Source: Halosolutus gelatinilyticus (lineage in GTDB: Archaea; Halobacteriota; Halobacteria; Halobacteriales; Natrialbaceae). Taken from it: 64,000 bases of DNA. The position numbers and the translations under genes were made by a program. Below, in pieces: positions 362-48,777 of this stretch; the first letter of the stretch is position 1; every line of letters begins with the position of its first letter. The DNA is taken from assembly GCF_023028105.1 (NCBI RefSeq), contig NZ_CP095491.1, positions 868,001 through 932,000 of the forward strand. Direction: 5' to 3'. The notes below the pieces were generated by a model, which saw only the letters and a list, made by a program, of their open reading frames with translations, ran no database searches and was not told where the DNA came from.

Positions 362-1195
362 CTAGCTCAGCACGGCTCGAAGGGCGAACAGGGCGTTCTC
401 CTTGCGTTCGCGCACTCGGCGGTAGAAGTAGGACAGCCACTTCGGCCCGTACGGGACGTACTGGTACACGTCGTGGTCCGCGGCGAGGTCGCGCTGGGCG
501 TCCTCGCGAACGCCCATGAGTAGCTGAAACTCGAAGGAAGCGTCGTGCTCCGCGGCGAGTCGCTCGACGTACTCGATCACCTCGGGATCGTGGCTGCCGA
601 CGGCGATGCCGCCGTCGAACGTCTCGAAGGCGACCGCGAGCAGGTCGCGGTAGGCCTCGTTCACCCGTTCTTTCTTCTTGTACGCGACGCTCGCCGGTTC
701 GTCGTACGCGCCCTTGACGAACCGTACCTTCCCGGGGACGCCCGCCAGTCGCTCGGCGTCCTCACGCGTTCGCTTCAGGTTCGCCTGGACGCAGACGCCG
801 ACGTTTCCGTCGGTCTTGCGCGCGTGGTGTACGAACGCGTCGAGCGTGACGTCCGTCGTCGTGTGGTCTTCCATGTCGATCCAGACGAAAACGTCGCGTT
901 CGGTCCCCGCCTCGACGATCCGATCGAGGTGGGACAGGAAGACGTCGTCGCCGAGGTCGAGACCGATCTGCGAGGGTTTCACCGAGACGCAACAGTCGAG
1001 ATCGTTCCTATCGATCGCTTCGATCAGTTCGACGTAGGCGTCGGCGTCGGCGGCAGCCTCGGCCGGATCGTCGTAGTGTTCGCCGAGCAGGTTCAGAATT
1101 CCCGCGACGCCGTCCCCGTTGAGGGTTTCGACGTGCGACAGCGCCCCCGCCTGGTCCTCGGCGGCGACGAAATCGTTCGCGACTGGAAGGAGCAT
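362..1195 (-). CDS. proline dehydrogenase
   Basis: A 277-residue protein resembling the monofunctional proline dehydrogenase of haloarchaea: FAD-dependent oxidation of proline to pyrroline-5-carboxylate, passing electrons to the membrane quinone pool. Visible family signs are the start MLLPVANDFVAAE, GILNLLGEHY near residues 32-41, the barrel segments SVKPSQIGLD and FVWIDMEDH, VRFVKGAYDEP, and the C-terminal YVPYGPKWLSYFYRR, whose paired arginines contact the substrate carboxylate in this family. The frame is open further upstream (to 1387), but that extension is arginine-rich and unlike the family, so the ATG at 1195 is chosen. No P5C dehydrogenase gene is adjacent; the aldehyde dehydrogenase at 54744 is of uncertain substrate. 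Confidence 0.88.
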   Translation of the reverse strand: MLLPVANDFVAAEDQAGALSHVETLNGDGVAGILNLLGEHYDDPAEAAADADAYVELIEAIDRNDLDCCVSVKPSQIGLDLGDDVFLSHLDRIVEAGTERDVFVWIDMEDHTTTDVTLDAFVHHARKTDGNVGVCVQANLKRTREDAERLAGVPGKVRFVKGAYDEPASVAYKKKERVNEAYRDLLAVAFETFDGGIAVGSHDPEVIEYVERLAAEHDASFEFQLLMGVREDAQRDLAADHDVYQYVPYGPKWLSYFYRRVRERKENALFALRAVLS

Positions 1196-1512: not shown

Positions 1513-4476
1513 TCAGTCGTCGTCCATCGGCGCCGTCACGGGCTCGACGCGCTCGCCGCGCGGGCCGTCGAGGTCGACGTCCGGGAGCAGGTCGCGGAGA
1601 TACCGCCCGGTGTGAGAGTCCTCGAGCCGCGCGACGTCCTCGGGCGTGCCGGTTGCGACGACCTCGCCGCCGTTCTCGCCGCCCTCGGGGCCGAGGTCGA
1701 TGACCCGATCGGCGTTCTTCACGAGGTCGAGTTCGTGCTCGATGACGACGACGGTGTTGCCGTTGTCGGTCAGCCGGTGGAGCACCTCGATGAGCTTGCG
1801 CTCGTCCTCGTGGTGCAGTCCCGTGGTGGGTTCGTCGAGCAGGTAGAGCGTCTCGCCGGAGTCTTTCTTCCCTAACTCCTCGGCGAGTTTGATGCGCTGG
1901 GCCTCGCCGCCGGAGAGCGTCGTCGAGGGTTGGCCGAGCGTCATGTAGTCGAGGCCGACGTCCTTCAGGAGCTTCAGGCGACGCCGGATCTGCGAGTTCG
2001 ACTCGAAGAACTCGTAGGCCTCGCTAACCTCCATGCCGAGAACGTCCGAGATCGTCTTCCCCTTGTAGGTGACGTCCAGGGTAGCGTCGTTGTAGCGGGC
2101 ACCGTCGCACTCCTCGCAGGGGACGTACACGTCCGAGAGGAAGTTCATCTCGATCTTCACCGTTCCCTGCCCGCCACACTCCTCGCAGCGGCCGCCCTTG
2201 ACGTTGAAGGAGAACCGGCCCCTCTCGTAGCCGCGCTGTTTGGCGAGTTTGGTCTCGGCGAACAGTTCGCGGATGTAGTCGAAGACGCCGGTGTACGTGG
2301 CCGGATTGGAGCGGGGCGTCCGGCCGATCGGCGACTGGTCGATCAGGCGGACGGTTTCGATCTGATCGAGGCCCTCGATCGCGTCGTGGTCGCCGGGGAT
2401 GACCGACGTGTTGTCGTTCATCTCGCGCGCGAGGCCCTTGTAGAGCACCTCGTGCATGAGCGTCGACTTGCCCGAACCCGAGACGCCGGTGATCGCCGTG
2501 AAACAGCCCAGCGGGAGATCCACGTCGAGGTTATCGAGGTTGTGCTGGCGGGCGCCTCGAATCGTCAGCGCGCCCTCGGGGTCGCGGCGTTCGTCGGGCA
2601 CGGGGATCTGCTTCCGGCCGGAGAGGTAGTCGCCGGTCAGCGAGTCCTCGCAGGCCTTGACATCCTCGACGGGGCCGTTGACGACGACCTCGCCGCCGCG
2701 CTTGCCCGGACCGGGACCCATGTCGATGACGTTGTCAGCGCGGCGCATCGTCTCCTCGTCGTGTTCGACGACCAGCAGGGTGTTCCCGAGGTCCCGAAGC
2801 TCCTCGAGAGTGTCCAGCAGGCGATCGTTGTCCCGCTGGTGGAGCCCGATCGACGGCTCGTCGAGCACGTAGAGGACGCCCACGAGGCCGGAGCCGATCT
2901 GCGTCGCGAGTCGAATGCGCTGGCTCTCCCCGCCGGAGAGCGTGGAGGCCTCCCGATCGAGCGTGAGGTACTCGAGACCCACTTCGCACATGAACCCGAG
3001 GCGGGCGCGGATCTCCTTCAAGATTTCCTCGGCGATCACCTTCTCGCGTTCGGTGAAGTTGGCTTCGAGCGACTCGAAGTGCGCCAGGGCGTCGCCGATG
3101 CTCATCGCGTTGATCTCGGTGATGGAGGTGCCGTCGACGAGCACGGCCCGAGAGGCGGGCTTGAGGCGGGTGCCGTCGCAGGCTGGACACTCGGTAACGG
3201 ACATGTAGTCCTCGATGTGTTCACGGGTCGAGTCCGAGTCCGTCTCGAGGTAGCGCCGATCGAGGTTCGGGATAACGCCCTCGAAGCGCTTGCGCTTCCG
3301 TCGAGTACCGTTCTTGGTGTGGCGCTTGAACGTGACCTTCTCGCCGGTGCCGTAGAGGAACGCGTGCTGGATCTCCTCGTCGACGTCCTCGAACGGGGTC
3401 GAGAGCGAGACGTCGAAGTGCTCGGCGACCGCGTCGAGCCGGGTCTGGTAGTACGATCGGTTGTAGCTCCAGGGCTCGAAGACGTGCTTGAGCGGCTTCG
3501 AGGGGTCCTGAATCACGAGGTCCTCGTCGACCTCCTTGGTCTCGCCCAGCCCCTCGCACTCGGGACAGGCGCCGTGGGGCGAGTTAAAGGAGAAACTACG
3601 GGTCTCGATCTCCGGGACGTCGATCCCGCAGTGCGTGCAGGCGAGGTCCTTCGAGAACTCGACGACGAACCGATCGTCTTCCTCCCGCTCGTCGCCGAGC
3701 GCGCCCGTCCGGCGGGCCTCCTCGCCGAGATCCGCGGCGACGTCTTCGGGCGCGTCCGGCAGGATGACCTTCAGGACGCCCTCGGCCTCGTCGAGCGCGG
3801 TCTCGACGCTGTCGATGATCCGCGGCCGATCCTCGACGGAAACCTTGACGCGATCGACGATCACGTCGATCGTGTGGTCGAAGTTCTCGTCCAGGTCGGG
3901 TTTCTCCAGGGTGAGGTCGTGTTCCTCACCGTCGACCTCCACGCGGGCGTAGCCCTCAGAGACGAGTTCGTCGAACAGGTCCTCGAAGGCGCCCTTCTGG
4001 TCGCGGACGACCGGCGCCGCGAGTTTAGCCTTCGTCCCCTCGGGGAGGTCGAGGATGCGCTCGACCATGTTCTGTGCCGACTGCTCGCCGACCTCGCGGC
4101 CACATTCGGGACAGTGGGGCGTGCCGACGCGCGCGTAGAGCAGTCGGAGGTAGTCGTGGAGTTCCGTCACCGTCCCGACGGTCGATCGGGGATTGTTCGC
4201 CGCGTTCTTCTGATCGATCGAAATCGCGGGCGAGAGGCCGTCGACGGACTCGACCTGCGGCTTGTCCATCTGGCCGAGGAAGTTCCGGGCGTACGCGGAG
4301 AGGCTCTCGATGTACCGGCGCTGCCCTTCGGCGTAGATGGTCTCGAACGCGAGCGAGGACTTGCCCGATCCCGAGAGGCCGGTGACGACGGTGAACTCCT
4401 CTCGGGGAATCGAGACGTCGAGGTCCTTGAGGTTGTGCTCCTCCGCCCCTCGCACCTCGATGTAGTCTTTGCTCAT
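1513..4476 (-). CDS. uvrA: excinuclease ABC subunit A (UvrA)
   Basis: A 987-residue DNA-damage recognition ATPase of nucleotide excision repair, which works with UvrB and UvrC. The two ABC modules are plain: first Walker A GLSGSGKS at residues 33-40, second GVSGSGKS in the C-terminal half, and each half has an LSGGE signature and an LDEP Walker B. Zinc modules are shown by CPECGREV, CTHCGID...CPECEG, CPACDG and CEECGGQG...CEECDG. Length is close to bacterial UvrA (about 940) plus an acidic haloarchaeal tail (residues 970-987). The ATG at 4476 starts MSKDYIEVRGAEEHN, the usual N-terminus. uvrB and uvrC are not in the window. Confidence 0.97.
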   Translation of the reverse strand: MSKDYIEVRGAEEHNLKDLDVSIPREEFTVVTGLSGSGKSSLAFETIYAEGQRRYIESLSAYARNFLGQMDKPQVESVDGLSPAISIDQKNAANNPRSTVGTVTELHDYLRLLYARVGTPHCPECGREVGEQSAQNMVERILDLPEGTKAKLAAPVVRDQKGAFEDLFDELVSEGYARVEVDGEEHDLTLEKPDLDENFDHTIDVIVDRVKVSVEDRPRIIDSVETALDEAEGVLKVILPDAPEDVAADLGEEARRTGALGDEREEDDRFVVEFSKDLACTHCGIDVPEIETRSFSFNSPHGACPECEGLGETKEVDEDLVIQDPSKPLKHVFEPWSYNRSYYQTRLDAVAEHFDVSLSTPFEDVDEEIQHAFLYGTGEKVTFKRHTKNGTRRKRKRFEGVIPNLDRRYLETDSDSTREHIEDYMSVTECPACDGTRLKPASRAVLVDGTSITEINAMSIGDALAHFESLEANFTEREKVIAEEILKEIRARLGFMCEVGLEYLTLDREASTLSGGESQRIRLATQIGSGLVGVLYVLDEPSIGLHQRDNDRLLDTLEELRDLGNTLLVVEHDEETMRRADNVIDMGPGPGKRGGEVVVNGPVEDVKACEDSLTGDYLSGRKQIPVPDERRDPEGALTIRGARQHNLDNLDVDLPLGCFTAITGVSGSGKSTLMHEVLYKGLAREMNDNTSVIPGDHDAIEGLDQIETVRLIDQSPIGRTPRSNPATYTGVFDYIRELFAETKLAKQRGYERGRFSFNVKGGRCEECGGQGTVKIEMNFLSDVYVPCEECDGARYNDATLDVTYKGKTISDVLGMEVSEAYEFFESNSQIRRRLKLLKDVGLDYMTLGQPSTTLSGGEAQRIKLAEELGKKDSGETLYLLDEPTTGLHHEDERKLIEVLHRLTDNGNTVVVIEHELDLVKNADRVIDLGPEGGENGGEVVATGTPEDVARLEDSHTGRYLRDLLPDVDLDGPRGERVEPVTAPMDDD

Positions 4477-4666
4477 GATAGTGTAACTGAAATGGTGGGT
4501 GGTGGCGATCCGGTCGGTGGGCGATCCATCGTAGTTGAGTCAGTGGCCGGAACGACTTAACGAGTCTGAAAGGCGGATAGCATGCTGTTTGCTAGCAAAT
4601 TTCTGTGATCGGGTTCGATCGATCGGACACGGGGTAGATGTGCCCAGTAATCAAATAGTTGTGACT

Positions 4667-4828
4667 ACCACGAAAGCCCCTCCCGTGTCGGCTGATCGGG
4701 ATGCCACCGTGGGTGGGAATGAAAGGAGCTGCCGTGCTCGGCGAACCCGGCGGACCCAAGCACCGCAGGACGAAGTCCGAGGAGCGCAGGGAGGCCTGGG
4801 AGTCGAGCGCGGCAGGGGCTTTCGTGGT
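4667..4828. repeat. inverted-repeat-bounded hairpin element, copy 1
   Basis: This element sits in the 546-base gap between uvrA and mutL. Its ends are near-perfect inverted repeats: accacgaaagcccctcccg (4667-4685) and the complement of 4810-4828 agree at 18 of 19 positions. Inside is a core (4711-4823) with ggtggg then gaaaggagc, an 11-base arm (4730-4740) complementary at 10 of 11 positions to 4804-4814, and ggggctttc (4815-4823). The same core design recurs at 48052-48140 in the other orientation with a different stem sequence. The rest of the gap (4477-4666 and 4829-5022) shows no credible gene. It must hold the divergent promoters of uvrA and mutL, but I cannot place them with confidence. 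Confidence 0.65.
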
Positions 4829-5022
4829 GTTTTCAGTGGTTATAGGGACCCACTTCGAGTGAGCGCATATGAACGCGCCGCCAAACACGCGTAAGACCTA
4901 ACCAGCCGCTGTGGCTATGGAGTAACGAAGAATCGGACGGGGCCCCGTCCCGCGAGGGCGCCGCGATCGATGTCACCGCGATCGATCCCAACCCACCAGC
5001 AGACCGCCACACCCGAGAAATA

Positions 5023-7206
5023 ATGAGCGAGGACACCACACCCGAGGCGACCGAGATTCACGAGTTGGACGAGGACACCGTCGCCCGCATCGCCGCGGGC
5101 GAGGTGGTCGAGCGGCCCGCGAGCGCCGTGAAGGAACTCGTCGAGAACAGCGTAGACGCCGGCGCGGAGACGATCGACGTCACCGTCGAGGCGGGCGGCA
5201 CCGAGTCGATCCGGGTCGCCGACGACGGGCGCGGGATGAGCGAGGCGGACGTCCGCGCGGCCGTCCGCCAGCACACGACCAGCAAGATCGCCGGCCTCGA
5301 AGACCTCGAGAAGGGCGTCGCCACCCTCGGGTTCCGCGGCGAGGCGCTGCACACGATCGGCTCCGTCTCGCGGCTGACCGTTCGATCGCGGCCCCGCGAC
5401 GGGGCCGGCGCGGGGACGGAACTCGTCTACGAGGGCGGCGACGTAGTCTCGGTCGAACCCGCGGGCTGTCCGACGGGGACGATCGTCGAGGTCGAGGACC
5501 TCTTCTACAACACTCCGGCCCGACGGAAGTTCCTCAAAACGACCGCGACGGAGTTCGCCCACGTCAACCGGGTCGTCACGCGCTACGCGCTGGCGAATCC
5601 CGACGTCGCGGTCTCGCTGACCCACGACGGCCGCGAGGTGTTCGCCACGACGGGCCAGGGCGACCTGCAGGCCGCGGTCCTCGCGGTCTACGGCCGCGAG
5701 GTCGCGTCGGCGATGATCCCGGTCCAGGCCGACGGGGAAGAACTCCCGCCGGGGCCGCTCGAATCGATCTCGGGGGTCGTCTCCCATCCCGAGACGAACC
5801 GATCGAGCCGAGAGTACCTCGCGACCTACGTCAACGGGCGCGCCGTGACCGCCGACGCGATCCGCGAGGGGATCATGGGCGCCTACGGCACGCAACTCGG
5901 GAGCGATCGCTACCCGTTCGTCGTCCTCTTTCTCGACGTGCCCGGCGACGCGGTGGACGTGAACGTCCACCCGCGCAAGCGCGAAGTCCGGTTCGACGAC
6001 GACGACGCCGTCCGCCGCCAGGTCGACGCCGCGGTCGAGGCCGCACTGCTCGACCACGGCCTCCTGCGATCGCGCGCACCCCGCGGTCGATCGGCGCCCG
6101 GCGAGGCTCGTCTCGAACCCGGAACGCTGGACGAGACGGCGGGCCGATCGGACGCGGACGACGGGATCGACACCGCCGAGACGTCGACCGATCGCGAAGC
6201 GACCGAGCGACCGAGCGATCGCGAAGCGGACCGATCGAGCGGGATCGAGACGTCGTCGTCCCCTCCGACGGAGCCGCTCGACGATCCGGCGACAGGAGAA
6301 CCGGGTCACTCTACCGATCCGGGCGAAACCGGATCCGCGGAGCCCGCGGAACCGGGCGACGATCGGATCCGCGACGAGCCGACGGCCCGTTCTCCGTCCG
6401 ACTCCCCGGCGAACGCGACGGGGGCGACCCCCGGTACCGAAGAGCCGACGCCGGTCGAGGGCGAATCCGACTCCGATCACACCCACGCGCCCGATCGCCC
6501 CCGCGAGTTCGACGCCGACGCCGATCGGAAGTTCGACGGACCGAGCGAACAGCGAACGCTCGCGGGCGAGGTGGCGACGGGCGACGAGACCGAGTTCGAG
6601 TCGCTGCCGCCGCTGCGCGTGCTCGGCCAGGTGCGGGATACCTACCTCGTCTGCGAGGCGCCGGACGGCCTCGCGCTGATCGACCAGCACGCCGCCGACG
6701 AGCGGGTCAATTACGAGCGGCTGCGAGACGCATTCGCCGACGATCCCGCCGCGCAGGCGCTCGCCTCACCGGTCGAACTCGAACTGACCGCGATCGAGGC
6801 GGAGGCGTTCGAGAGCTACAAGGCGGCCCTCGAGCGGCTGGGCTTTTACGCCGATCGGGTCGACGATCGGACCGTCGCGGTGACGACGGTGCCGGCGGTG
6901 TTCGCGGAGACGCTCGAACCCGATGCGCTCCGAGACGTCCTCGCGTCGTTCGTCGACGGCGATCGCGAGTCGGGCTCTGAGACGGTCGACGCCCTGGCCG
7001 ACGAGTTCCTGGGCGATCTGGCCTGTTACCCGTCGATCACCGGAAACACGTCGCTGACCGAAGGATCGGTGATCGACCTGTTGGAGGCGCTCGACGGCTG
7101 CGAAAATCCCTACGCCTGCCCGCACGGCCGGCCGGTGATCGTCGAGATCGACGAGGAGGAGATCGAGGATCGGTTCGAGCGGGACTATCCCGGCCACGGC
7201 GGCTGA
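5023..7206 (+). CDS. mutL: DNA mismatch repair protein MutL
   Basis: A 727-residue MutL. The N-terminal GHKL ATPase is intact: ELVENSVDAGA (residues 38-48), DDGRGM (67-72), TSKI (86-89) and GFRGEAL (103-109). Residues about 345-520 form a low-complexity, acidic and Ser/Thr-rich linker, longer than in bacteria. The C-terminal dimerisation domain carries DQHAADERVNYE, which fits the DQHA(X)2E(X)4E endonuclease motif, and ends with the metal-site element ACPHGRP, so it should be a nicking MutL and not the E. coli type that depends on MutH. Start ATG at 5023 gives MSEDTTPEATEIHELDEDTV, leading directly into the ATPase. mutS, often the neighbour in haloarchaea, is not adjacent here. Confidence 0.96.
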   Translation: MSEDTTPEATEIHELDEDTVARIAAGEVVERPASAVKELVENSVDAGAETIDVTVEAGGTESIRVADDGRGMSEADVRAAVRQHTTSKIAGLEDLEKGVATLGFRGEALHTIGSVSRLTVRSRPRDGAGAGTELVYEGGDVVSVEPAGCPTGTIVEVEDLFYNTPARRKFLKTTATEFAHVNRVVTRYALANPDVAVSLTHDGREVFATTGQGDLQAAVLAVYGREVASAMIPVQADGEELPPGPLESISGVVSHPETNRSSREYLATYVNGRAVTADAIREGIMGAYGTQLGSDRYPFVVLFLDVPGDAVDVNVHPRKREVRFDDDDAVRRQVDAAVEAALLDHGLLRSRAPRGRSAPGEARLEPGTLDETAGRSDADDGIDTAETSTDREATERPSDREADRSSGIETSSSPPTEPLDDPATGEPGHSTDPGETGSAEPAEPGDDRIRDEPTARSPSDSPANATGATPGTEEPTPVEGESDSDHTHAPDRPREFDADADRKFDGPSEQRTLAGEVATGDETEFESLPPLRVLGQVRDTYLVCEAPDGLALIDQHAADERVNYERLRDAFADDPAAQALASPVELELTAIEAEAFESYKAALERLGFYADRVDDRTVAVTTVPAVFAETLEPDALRDVLASFVDGDRESGSETVDALADEFLGDLACYPSITGNTSLTEGSVIDLLEALDGCENPYACPHGRPVIVEIDEEEIEDRFERDYPGHGG

Positions 7207-47356: not shown

Positions 47357-47959
47357 TCAGAATCCGTCGAGGCGCGTCTGCCCGCTCCCGTTGTCGCCGG
47401 CGTCGACGCCGGCCAGTTCCGCCGCCCGCTGCAGCGCCGCTTCGAAGGTCGCCTCCTGGCTCCGATCGTACAGCGTCGCGGCCGGATGCACGCAGATCAT
47501 CACGCGACGCGGCGCGCCTTCGATCCGAACGTCGACGACGTCGCCGGCTTCCTTCGTGACGGCGACCGATCGGCCGAGCAGGTGTTCGCTGGGAACCTTG
47601 CCCAGCGTGACGATCACGTCCGGGTCGAGCCGATCGATCTCGCGCTCCAGATACTCGCGGCAGTTCTCGAGTTCCGTTTTCGTCGGATCGCGGTTCTCGG
47701 GCGGGCGACAGCGCACGCAGTTCGTGATCCGGACGGTCTCCCGATCGAGGCCGACGGCTCGAAGCTGCTCGTTCAGGACGGTGCCGCTGCGGCCGACGAA
47801 CGGTTCGCCCTGCTCGTCCTCGTTCGCACCCGGTCCCTCGCCGACGAGCAGCACGTCGGCGTCCGCGGGGCCGGTGCCGTTGACGATTCGACTCCGACAG
47901 TCGACGAGCTCCGGACACCGGGTGCAGGCGGTGACGCGGAGGTCCTCCATCGTTCCCAT
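47357..47959 (-). CDS. uracil-DNA glycosylase, iron-sulfur type (family 4-like)
   Basis: A 200-residue Fe-S uracil-DNA glycosylase of base excision repair. The catalytic loop is GEGPGANEDEQGEPFVGRSG (about residues 40-59), VHPAATLY is the second active-site motif, and CTRC (12-15) with later cysteines (NCVRCRPP, NCREYL) can hold the 4Fe-4S cluster. It removes uracil from deaminated cytosine. An inner ATG at 47950 (MEDLRVTACTRC) is an equally plausible start. It is followed by hisH on the same strand after about 160 bases. Confidence 0.92.
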   Translation of the reverse strand: MGTMEDLRVTACTRCPELVDCRSRIVNGTGPADADVLLVGEGPGANEDEQGEPFVGRSGTVLNEQLRAVGLDRETVRITNCVRCRPPENRDPTKTELENCREYLEREIDRLDPDVIVTLGKVPSEHLLGRSVAVTKEAGDVVDVRIEGAPRRVMICVHPAATLYDRSQEATFEAALQRAAELAGVDAGDNGSGQTRLDGF

Positions 47960-48051
47960 GGCGAATGAGTCAAAGGGGGACGGCCTACGTCTTTCGGGTC
48001 ACGACGATGACGAACCTGCTGAGGGGACGGACCAGTTGAAGAGAAGACTCA

Positions 48052-48140
48052 GAAAGCCCCCGCCTTCTCGAATCGCGCGGCTCGCTGCGATCCTTACTTC
48101 GCCGTGCTTCCTCGAGAAGGCAGCTCCTTCAGTCCCACCC
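48052..48140 (-). repeat. hairpin element, copy 2
   Basis: Read on the minus strand: gggtgggactgaaggagc, an arm (complement of 48112-48121), a loop, the second arm (48062-48071 complement, perfect 10-base match) and ggggctttc. Flanks and order are those of the element at 4711-4823, but the stem is a different sequence (gccttctcga/tcgagaaggc) that still pairs fully. The loop keeps traces of the first copy (gctcgctgcg, acttcg, gtgctt). It lies between the glycosylase and DUF99 genes. Confidence 0.6.
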
Positions 48141-48192
48141 GTGGTCGATCGTTCGGCGGGCTATCGCACGGTGGAAAAGACAATACGGCGTT

Positions 48193-48777
48193 TCACTCCC
48201 GATCACCGGCCGCGTACTCGTCCGCCGCTCGCGCCGCGATGCCGGCGACGCGAATCGGTTCCGGCCGTCCGCCCGCGGGCGTAAAGCCGCGGACGATCTC
48301 GCCGGCCTCGTCGCGATCGCATCCGAGGCACCTGACGTAGACGATTTCCCCGTTGACCGACACCGCACGACGGTCAGGGAGCGATCGGTACGTCGCGAGG
48401 CGCTCGTCGAGTTCGTCTCCGGAAAACGCGTCTCTGAGGCCGGCCTCGAGGCCGTCGCTCGCCTCGAACGTCACGGCGAGCACCGGTCGCTCGGCCGCGT
48501 CGTGAATTCGCGAGAGATCGAGCAGGTTGTACCAGGCGGGGGCGACGGCGCCGAGCAGAACGTATCGAACGTCGGGCCGACAGCACGTCTCGACGAGCGA
48601 TCGGACGGCGTCCGTCGCGTCCGTACCGCCGACGGTACACGCGGCGTAACGCAGTCCGTCGATCGCGCAGTCCGCGCGAACGACCGCGCCCGCGATGGTA
48701 CTCCGGACGGGGCCGCCAGCGTCGTCACGCCCGGAGAACGATTCCGCGAGGCCCAGCGCTCGCACCCCGGATTTCAT
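48193..48777 (-). CDS. DUF99 family protein
   Basis: A 194-residue archaeal DUF99 protein, distantly related to endonuclease V in fold. MKSGVRALGLAESFS at the start, VGGTDATDAVRSLVE, and DVRYVLLGAVAPAWYNLLDLSRIHDAAERPVLAVTFE are the typical blocks. The residues equivalent to an endonuclease active site are not clearly all present, so nuclease activity is uncertain. The DUF5786 gene stop-to-start gap is six bases to the neighbour on the right, same strand: the DUF5786 gene comes first in transcription. Confidence 0.88.
   Translation of the reverse strand: MKSGVRALGLAESFSGRDDAGGPVRSTIAGAVVRADCAIDGLRYAACTVGGTDATDAVRSLVETCCRPDVRYVLLGAVAPAWYNLLDLSRIHDAAERPVLAVTFEASDGLEAGLRDAFSGDELDERLATYRSLPDRRAVSVNGEIVYVRCLGCDRDEAGEIVRGFTPAGGRPEPIRVAGIAARAADEYAAGDRE

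Follow-up and report, generated by a model that had tools for sequence, protein, structure and literature searches.

The closest haloarchaeal description for the repeat reported here is a catalogue of transposase-free repeats (MITE, PATE and SMR) in Haloquadratum (PMC3119063), and the system closest in logic is that of the REPINs (PMC3116915). Like the RAYT-associated REPIN/REP sequences of bacteria, our repeat occurs between genes as inverted doublets and as singlets, reaches high copy numbers and shows compensatory changes in its hairpin (PMC3116915). However, its rod-shaped unit is ~110 nt long as opposed to ~20-40 bp, has conserved internal loops and extends across an entire class, and most copy-rich genomes have no Y1 transposase. 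Moreover, REPIN singlets are held to be decayed remnants, whereas the solo units of the rod repeat have an intact form and keep their positions.

PATEs, which derive from IS605 and occur in Haloquadratum and other haloarchaea, resemble the rod repeat in being haloarchaeal, transposase-free, heterogeneous palindromes without target duplication (PMC3119063). Unlike the rod repeat, they have no terminal inverted repeats and share their ends with IS605 elements; rod units, in turn, show no link to the 30 TnpB loci compared, apart from one partial match. The SMR-A repeats of Haloquadratum are similar to the rod repeat in size (~110 bp), in having terminal inverted repeats but no target duplication, and in being present in up to 54 copies (PMC3119063). 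Copies of SMR-A are, however, >95% identical within a type and mostly inserted in PATE/IS605 palindromes, whereas the rod family combines a variable sequence with a conserved fold and lies between core genes; on the basis of the description it is provisionally set apart from SMR-A (HqIRS42/43/55). A description of the haloarchaeal rod repeat was not found in the open-access papers (without supplements) searched by topic and by sequence, and an earlier account may exist elsewhere. The ERIC (IRU) sequences of enterobacteria are similar in that they form long imperfect intergenic palindromes with internal insertions and deletions and have no known transposase. They measure ~127 bp and have a fairly constant sequence, whereas the main stem of the rod repeat is nearly free in sequence and its unit is embedded in composites that differ from genus to genus.

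The two copies in the window

The window, i.e. the whole stretch of 64,000 nucleotides of the Halosolutus gelatinilyticus genome that was analysed, holds two copies, which are listed here together with the neighbouring genes as context:

1513..4476, minus strand: uvrA, left of copy 1 (Pfam UvrA domains)
4667..4828, plus strand: whole element of copy 1, from the left to the right terminal inverted repeat
4667..4681, plus strand: left terminal inverted repeat of copy 1, ACCACGAAAGCCCCT (81 genome matches at <=2 mismatches, control 0)
4713..4823, plus strand: rod unit of copy 1 (covariance-model match of 102.7 bits; family alignment)
4721-4725 with 4819-4823: P1 of copy 1, GAAAG with CTTTC
4729-4742 with 4802-4815: P2 of copy 1
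4814..4828, minus strand: right terminal inverted repeat of copy 1, reverse complement of the left repeat
5023..7206, plus strand: mutL, right of copy 1 (Pfam MutL_C and DNA_mis_repair)
47357..47959, minus strand: uracil-DNA glycosylase gene beside copy 2 (Pfam UDG)
48052..48138, minus strand: rod unit of copy 2 (covariance-model match of 70.3 bits)
48193..48777, minus strand: gene of the Endo_dU family, flanking copy 2 opposite the glycosylase gene (Pfam Endo_dU)

The initial annotation had described two hairpin copies that share their ends and have stems that differ yet both pair. Both copies match the covariance model, at 4713-4823 (+) and 48052-48138 (-); the common ends (GGTGGGA.TGAA.GGAGC and GGGGCTTTC) are present, and the stems pair in either case (TGCCGTGCTCG/CGAGCGCGGCA in one copy and GCCTTCTCGA/TCGAGAAGGC in the other). 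The outer helix (GAAAG/CTTTC) and the purine-rich internal loop to which it had pointed are both real and both conserved. In copy 1 the internal loop between P1 and P2 is GAG/GGG, and further internal loops and apical helices lie beyond P2. The enclosing 18-of-19 inverted repeat (4667-4685, 4810-4828) turned out to bound a larger element as its terminal inverted repeat, the right-hand arm of which (4814-4828) overlaps with the rod unit at its 3' end. This element has a full rod unit on its right side only and a short, rod-less form on its left, so that an inverted repeat around one hairpin was seen. Copy 2 is a solo unit without a mirrored left half. A search of the window against Rfam gave only a tRNA at the gathering threshold and left the hairpins unmatched, and 12 other loci gave no plausible match at E up to 5.

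Composite elements

In the genome of H. gelatinilyticus (G000; 4.76 Mb, 4 contigs), copy 1 as query found 43 matches. The core GTGGGANTGAANG was matched exactly 30 times, whereas its reversed control had 0 matches. For the terminal repeat AACACCACGAAAGCCCC there were 81 matches at <=2 mismatches, versus 0 in the control; all 81 are located on the 3.9-Mb main contig, and the other 0.85 Mb of the genome has none. About 40 elements bounded by terminal repeats were catalogued, two of these entries with weak ends, and the two window copies therefore understate the number. A reading of 40 elements gave TTGAGAACACCACGAAAGCCCC as the outer inverted repeat, which falls to background ~8 bp outside CACCACG.

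In the composite layout two rod units face away from a ~30-bp centre, and all degrees of loss are seen. Head-to-head pairs, with the two cores ~43 bp apart, make up most copies in this genome. The rod is flanked by the direct repeats GGGGC/GGGGC, forms minus one or both rods keep a single copy of the tract, and the smallest elements measure 64-65 bp. At three loci, a species of the same genus (G371) carries, in the orthologous position, an element that includes parts of the unit missing from the H. gelatinilyticus copy, and thus at least some of the short forms are probably deletion products. Units occur single or in head-to-head pairs, within larger composites that differ between genera, and parts have been lost between short G-rich direct repeats.

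The form differs in G006, a genome of genus g30, where the rod forms the 3' portion of an element of ~265 nt that also has two more hairpins and a G-rich linker (GAGGCTGGGGAGG). P1 is CGAAG/CTTCG there, or CAAAG/CTTTG in some copies, and the 3' tails carry 50-64-bp tandem repeats made up of the last part of the rod and the tail. At locus L316 (G006:C1, near the 452813-style copies) at least five identical 63-bp tandem repeats follow the rod unit, and L284, L294 and L318 have two tandem repeats each, the tail sequence being identical within a locus and different between loci. In 12 of the 70 G006 copies, versus 0 in a control stretch, a TATA-like box precedes the 5' end of the element at positions -16 to -8; it could represent a promoter or a target preference.

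Fold and strand bias

For an alignment of 69 units, taken from H. gelatinilyticus, a congener, dozens of named species and plasmids, RNAalifold gave a single rod of ~105-125 nt. Its consensus consists, in this order, of P1 (GAAAG/CTTTC), a 3x3 GGG/GGG loop, P2, P3 and apical helices separated by conserved loops. The 14 pairs of P2 are nearly free in sequence, and the internal loops are among the most conserved parts across the 69 copies. With P1 extended, pairing is found in 94.9% of the stem cells of these copies, and double compensatory changes in 22 of the 31 pairs. The covariation score is 0.467, as compared to 0.123 after shuffling (reached in 0 of 500 shuffles) and <=0.070 when slid; the covarying helices exceed chance, as is demanded of a structured RNA. 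Indeed, this covariation bears out the earlier proposal of selection on the fold, be it as RNA or as a DNA hairpin recognised by an enzyme. Two outcomes had been named as contrary to it, a lack of further copies with the same flanks and arms that lose complementarity, and neither occurred. One strand of the unit is kept foldable while the stem sequence varies freely.

The strand follows from the mismatches. The non-Watson-Crick cells in P2, which are not independent of one another, favour the strand as originally read, with G.U at 38 versus A.C at 2 and G.G at 16 versus C.C at 0. When pairs were chosen only as being >=80% Watson-Crick the bias was 37 versus 13, and G006 showed the same direction, both with the structure predicted from the reverse strand (61 versus 21) and for pairs common to both predictions (39 versus 20). 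Such a bias indicates that the fold is selected on a single strand, either as RNA or as single-stranded DNA, and its repetition in a second genome counts against both a symmetric cruciform and an explanation by strand-switching repair alone.

Distribution

Rod repeats constitute a family that is found class-wide in haloarchaea, lies between genes at high copy number and has a conserved fold under selection on one strand. Its exact core was found in 197 of 391 Halobacteria genomes, representing 63 of 86 genera. The covariance model, with at most 39 candidates scored per genome, was positive in 81 of 97 Halobacteria genomes and 38 of 45 genera, in agreement with the relatives in other haloarchaea that the initial annotation had suspected. 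In a sample of 148 genomes from the phylum there were 20 positives, all in the order of H. gelatinilyticus (24 genomes listed), and 0 covariance-model positives outside the class Halobacteria. Deeper scoring of four genomes of genus g30 yielded 91, 109, 69 and 102 copies, and some of the copy-rich genomes have about one copy per 30 kb. Candidates from Myxococcales, Deltaproteobacteria and two viral contigs were rejected, as they matched only the 17-21-base search pattern without a rod after it. The rod repeat is thus found in the intergenic space of most haloarchaeal genomes tested, yet matches no Rfam family, and it offers a deep set of naturally covarying sequences for a fold of one strand.

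No match was found in 50,697 phage records, and 27 plasmid records have a match, in the form of single units. On a group of plasmids of Natrialbaceae (loci L242-L249, e.g. L245:1075-2611 and L247:1089-2611) the single unit lies ~530 bp from a divergent gene for a ~290-aa OB-fold 'DNA-binding protein'. The two are separated by ~450 nt of GC-rich noncoding sequence, which the plasmids have in conserved form and which matched nothing in Rfam; this sequence may represent a replication region or a structured RNA. The OB-fold gene was rejected as a linked partner, being present in 198 plasmid records versus 27 for the unit, which makes the link lineage-specific.

Age, turnover and gene context

The positions of the units can be old. 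Eighteen of the 30 top-scoring units of three sister genomes are orthologous, with both flanks matching, to G006 units, 70 of the 91 of which were sampled for this comparison. Orthologous rods differ by 11-35%, and the 182 changed pairs comprise 93 that changed on both sides and still pair, 27 that changed on one side and still pair, and 62 that lost their pairing. At some orthologous positions whole-rod subtypes were swapped, and consequently not all covariation between orthologues is stepwise compensation. In five Natrialbaceae species (Haloterrigena, Natrinema, Natronolimnohabitans, Natronorubrum) a unit is retained between two genes read as nucS and endA; the flanks have diverged and the stems have changed, with an extra hairpin within the stem in one. 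In contrast to this stability, the number of terminal-repeat matches (<=1 mismatch) is as low as 9 in the congener G371 and 3 in the congener G386. We infer that the unit is copied to new intergenic sites rarely and is then long resident.

The swapped subtypes also fit an explanation without function, in which hairpin-templated repair, together with conversion between copies, keeps the arms complementary, and the deletion derivatives between G-tracts likewise point to hairpin-prone replication. Such repair would, however, erase internal loops, which are among the most conserved parts, and it treats both strands alike, whereas the mismatches are strand-biased. We consider this explanation very unlikely.

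Nearly all copies in the H. gelatinilyticus genome are intergenic according to a codon-usage gene finder, with two lacking a clean placement, and they lie ~45-60 bp downstream of stop codons and ~90-130 bp upstream of start codons. Relative to their neighbouring genes, the G006 copies are oriented nearly at random (upstream gene 32 on the same strand and 38 on the opposite, downstream gene 28 and 42), and those of the set of named species are weakly co-directional. This spaced intergenic placement, the random orientation in G006 and the restriction of the H. gelatinilyticus elements to the main contig, with none on 0.85 Mb of others, would suit a DNA-level chromosome element, i.e. an intergenic cruciform or protein-binding site as proposed for bacterial BIMEs, which needs neither transcription nor movement. 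Yet a cruciform would use both strands alike, which is at odds with the strand-biased mismatches, the spacing of the G006 copies is near random (CV 0.87), and many Halobacteria are without the rod repeat, so that a chromosome element of this kind appears improbable.

Both window copies lie between DNA-repair genes (in the intervals 4476-5023 and 47959-48193), and a conserved copy elsewhere is beside the gene read as nucS. A DNA-repair neighbourhood was nevertheless rejected, since the neighbours of the other copies in the genome, as judged by reading, are mixed core genes, and the repair-gene context is probably due to chance. Clustering of the neighbours of 79 named loci did not produce a linked partner gene either, but only common repeat DNA and the nucS-endA synteny group; a common transposase was not among these neighbours.

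Tests for mobility

A close rival of the reading that we favour (see below) is a non-autonomous mobile DNA element of the REPIN/PATE kind, the folded top strand of which would be recognised as single-stranded DNA by a transposase or recombinase acting in trans, with the fold selected for mobility. The strand-specific fold is as this reading expects. So are the single units on 27 plasmid records and the wide variation of copy number within one genus (~40 elements in H. gelatinilyticus, 9 terminal-repeat matches in G371 and 3 in G386). Terminal inverted repeats, a trait of MITEs, are present, and nearly all of the 81 matches in H. gelatinilyticus form inward-facing pairs; the head-to-head pairs that they bound are in favour of mobility as well, while solo units outside this genome lack a mirrored half. 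A target-site duplication was not found in 208 length/offset tests on 35 elements (best 4 versus 1.6 expected). An autonomous transposon with the same ends was rejected for H. gelatinilyticus, where all inward-facing pairs lie within ~430 bp and leave no transposase-sized span.

Inverted doublets of an intergenic hairpin unit, a REPIN trait, are present in H. gelatinilyticus, and solo units dominate in other genera. The Y1 transposase (PF01797) is absent from six copy-rich genomes (H. gelatinilyticus, G006, G011, G009, G077 and G089), on which ground current Y1/RAYT mobilisation was rejected. It is present in six unit-free genomes, and unit-free genomes without it and copy-rich genomes with it also exist. 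An IS605/TnpB origin, for which shared ends (a PATE trait) would be expected, was rejected with one partial match in 30 TnpB loci; the single TnpB of H. gelatinilyticus is truncated. A lagging-strand orientation bias was rejected for the G006 chromosome, which has 48 runs versus 46 expected, i.e. random, without orientation blocks. Given the lack of a target duplication, of a TnpB link and, in most copy-rich genomes, of Y1, the repeat does not behave as a MITE, a PATE or a REPIN. These tests count against present mobilisation of the IS605/RAYT type, but not against past mobilisation or other enzymes. Considering in addition that positions are often common to several species, we regard the mobile element as a serious though somewhat doubtful candidate.

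A possible function as RNA

The reading that we tentatively favour is that of a rarely copied, REP/ERIC-like repeat whose folded strand would work as RNA. The constraint on one strand would then most likely act on RNA: the rod would either form part of intergenic or untranslated transcripts or be transcribed from a promoter adjacent to the element, and would then be bound or processed as a structured RNA. The repeat may thus have spread as a bacterial REP/ERIC repeat does, its shape being maintained as in a structured RNA. In favour of this are the double changes in 22 of 31 pairs, the G.U bias, the conserved loops, the class-wide spread and the 18 of 30 kept positions, as well as the TATA-like boxes in 12 of 70 G006 copies and the absence of Y1 from six copy-rich genomes. 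Against it, orientation to genes shows no bias in G006 and just a weak co-directional one elsewhere, the TATA-like box occurs in a minority of copies and is alternatively a target preference, copy number ranges widely within one genus, as for a proliferating DNA element, and some of the covariation stems from whole-rod replacement at the same site.

Judging from sequence, it is also conceivable, if somewhat short of probable, that the rod represents a new class of Halobacteria-specific, multi-copy structured RNA with a function at the RNA level. It would be a modular rod at fixed intergenic sites, ~110 nt in Natrialbaceae and within ~265-nt multi-domain elements in one haloarchaeal genus. The initial annotation had left open whether the element is mobile or a small-RNA family. 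The one-strand selection on the fold, the lack of a Y1 transposase or TnpB link and the positions often kept between species narrow this question. What reads the rod fold in Halobacteria, and why sites persist while the stem sequence turns over, have become testable questions.

Minor observations

The sequence GTGGGANTGAA at 4711-4723 of the window resembles the 3' part of haloarchaeal CRISPR repeats (GTGGGATTGAAGC); there is no array or spacer-like spacing at this place, and the likeness is probably due to chance. Extra hairpins, e.g. GTTGAGCGGAAGC...GCTTCCGC and TCGAAAGACGC...GCGTCTTTCG, are inserted in rods at stem or loop positions, as seen at L228:~940-1040 (-) and in many H. gelatinilyticus rods (e.g. 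G000:C1:1741015-1741442), and recur in several genera, like repeats within repeats. Finally, the base of the rod has conserved G-tracts (GGGTGGG, GGGG and GGGG; 4713-4728 and 4814-4818 in the window), which could form a putative G-quadruplex with the rod as its loop, an idea that has a potassium-rich cytoplasm in view.
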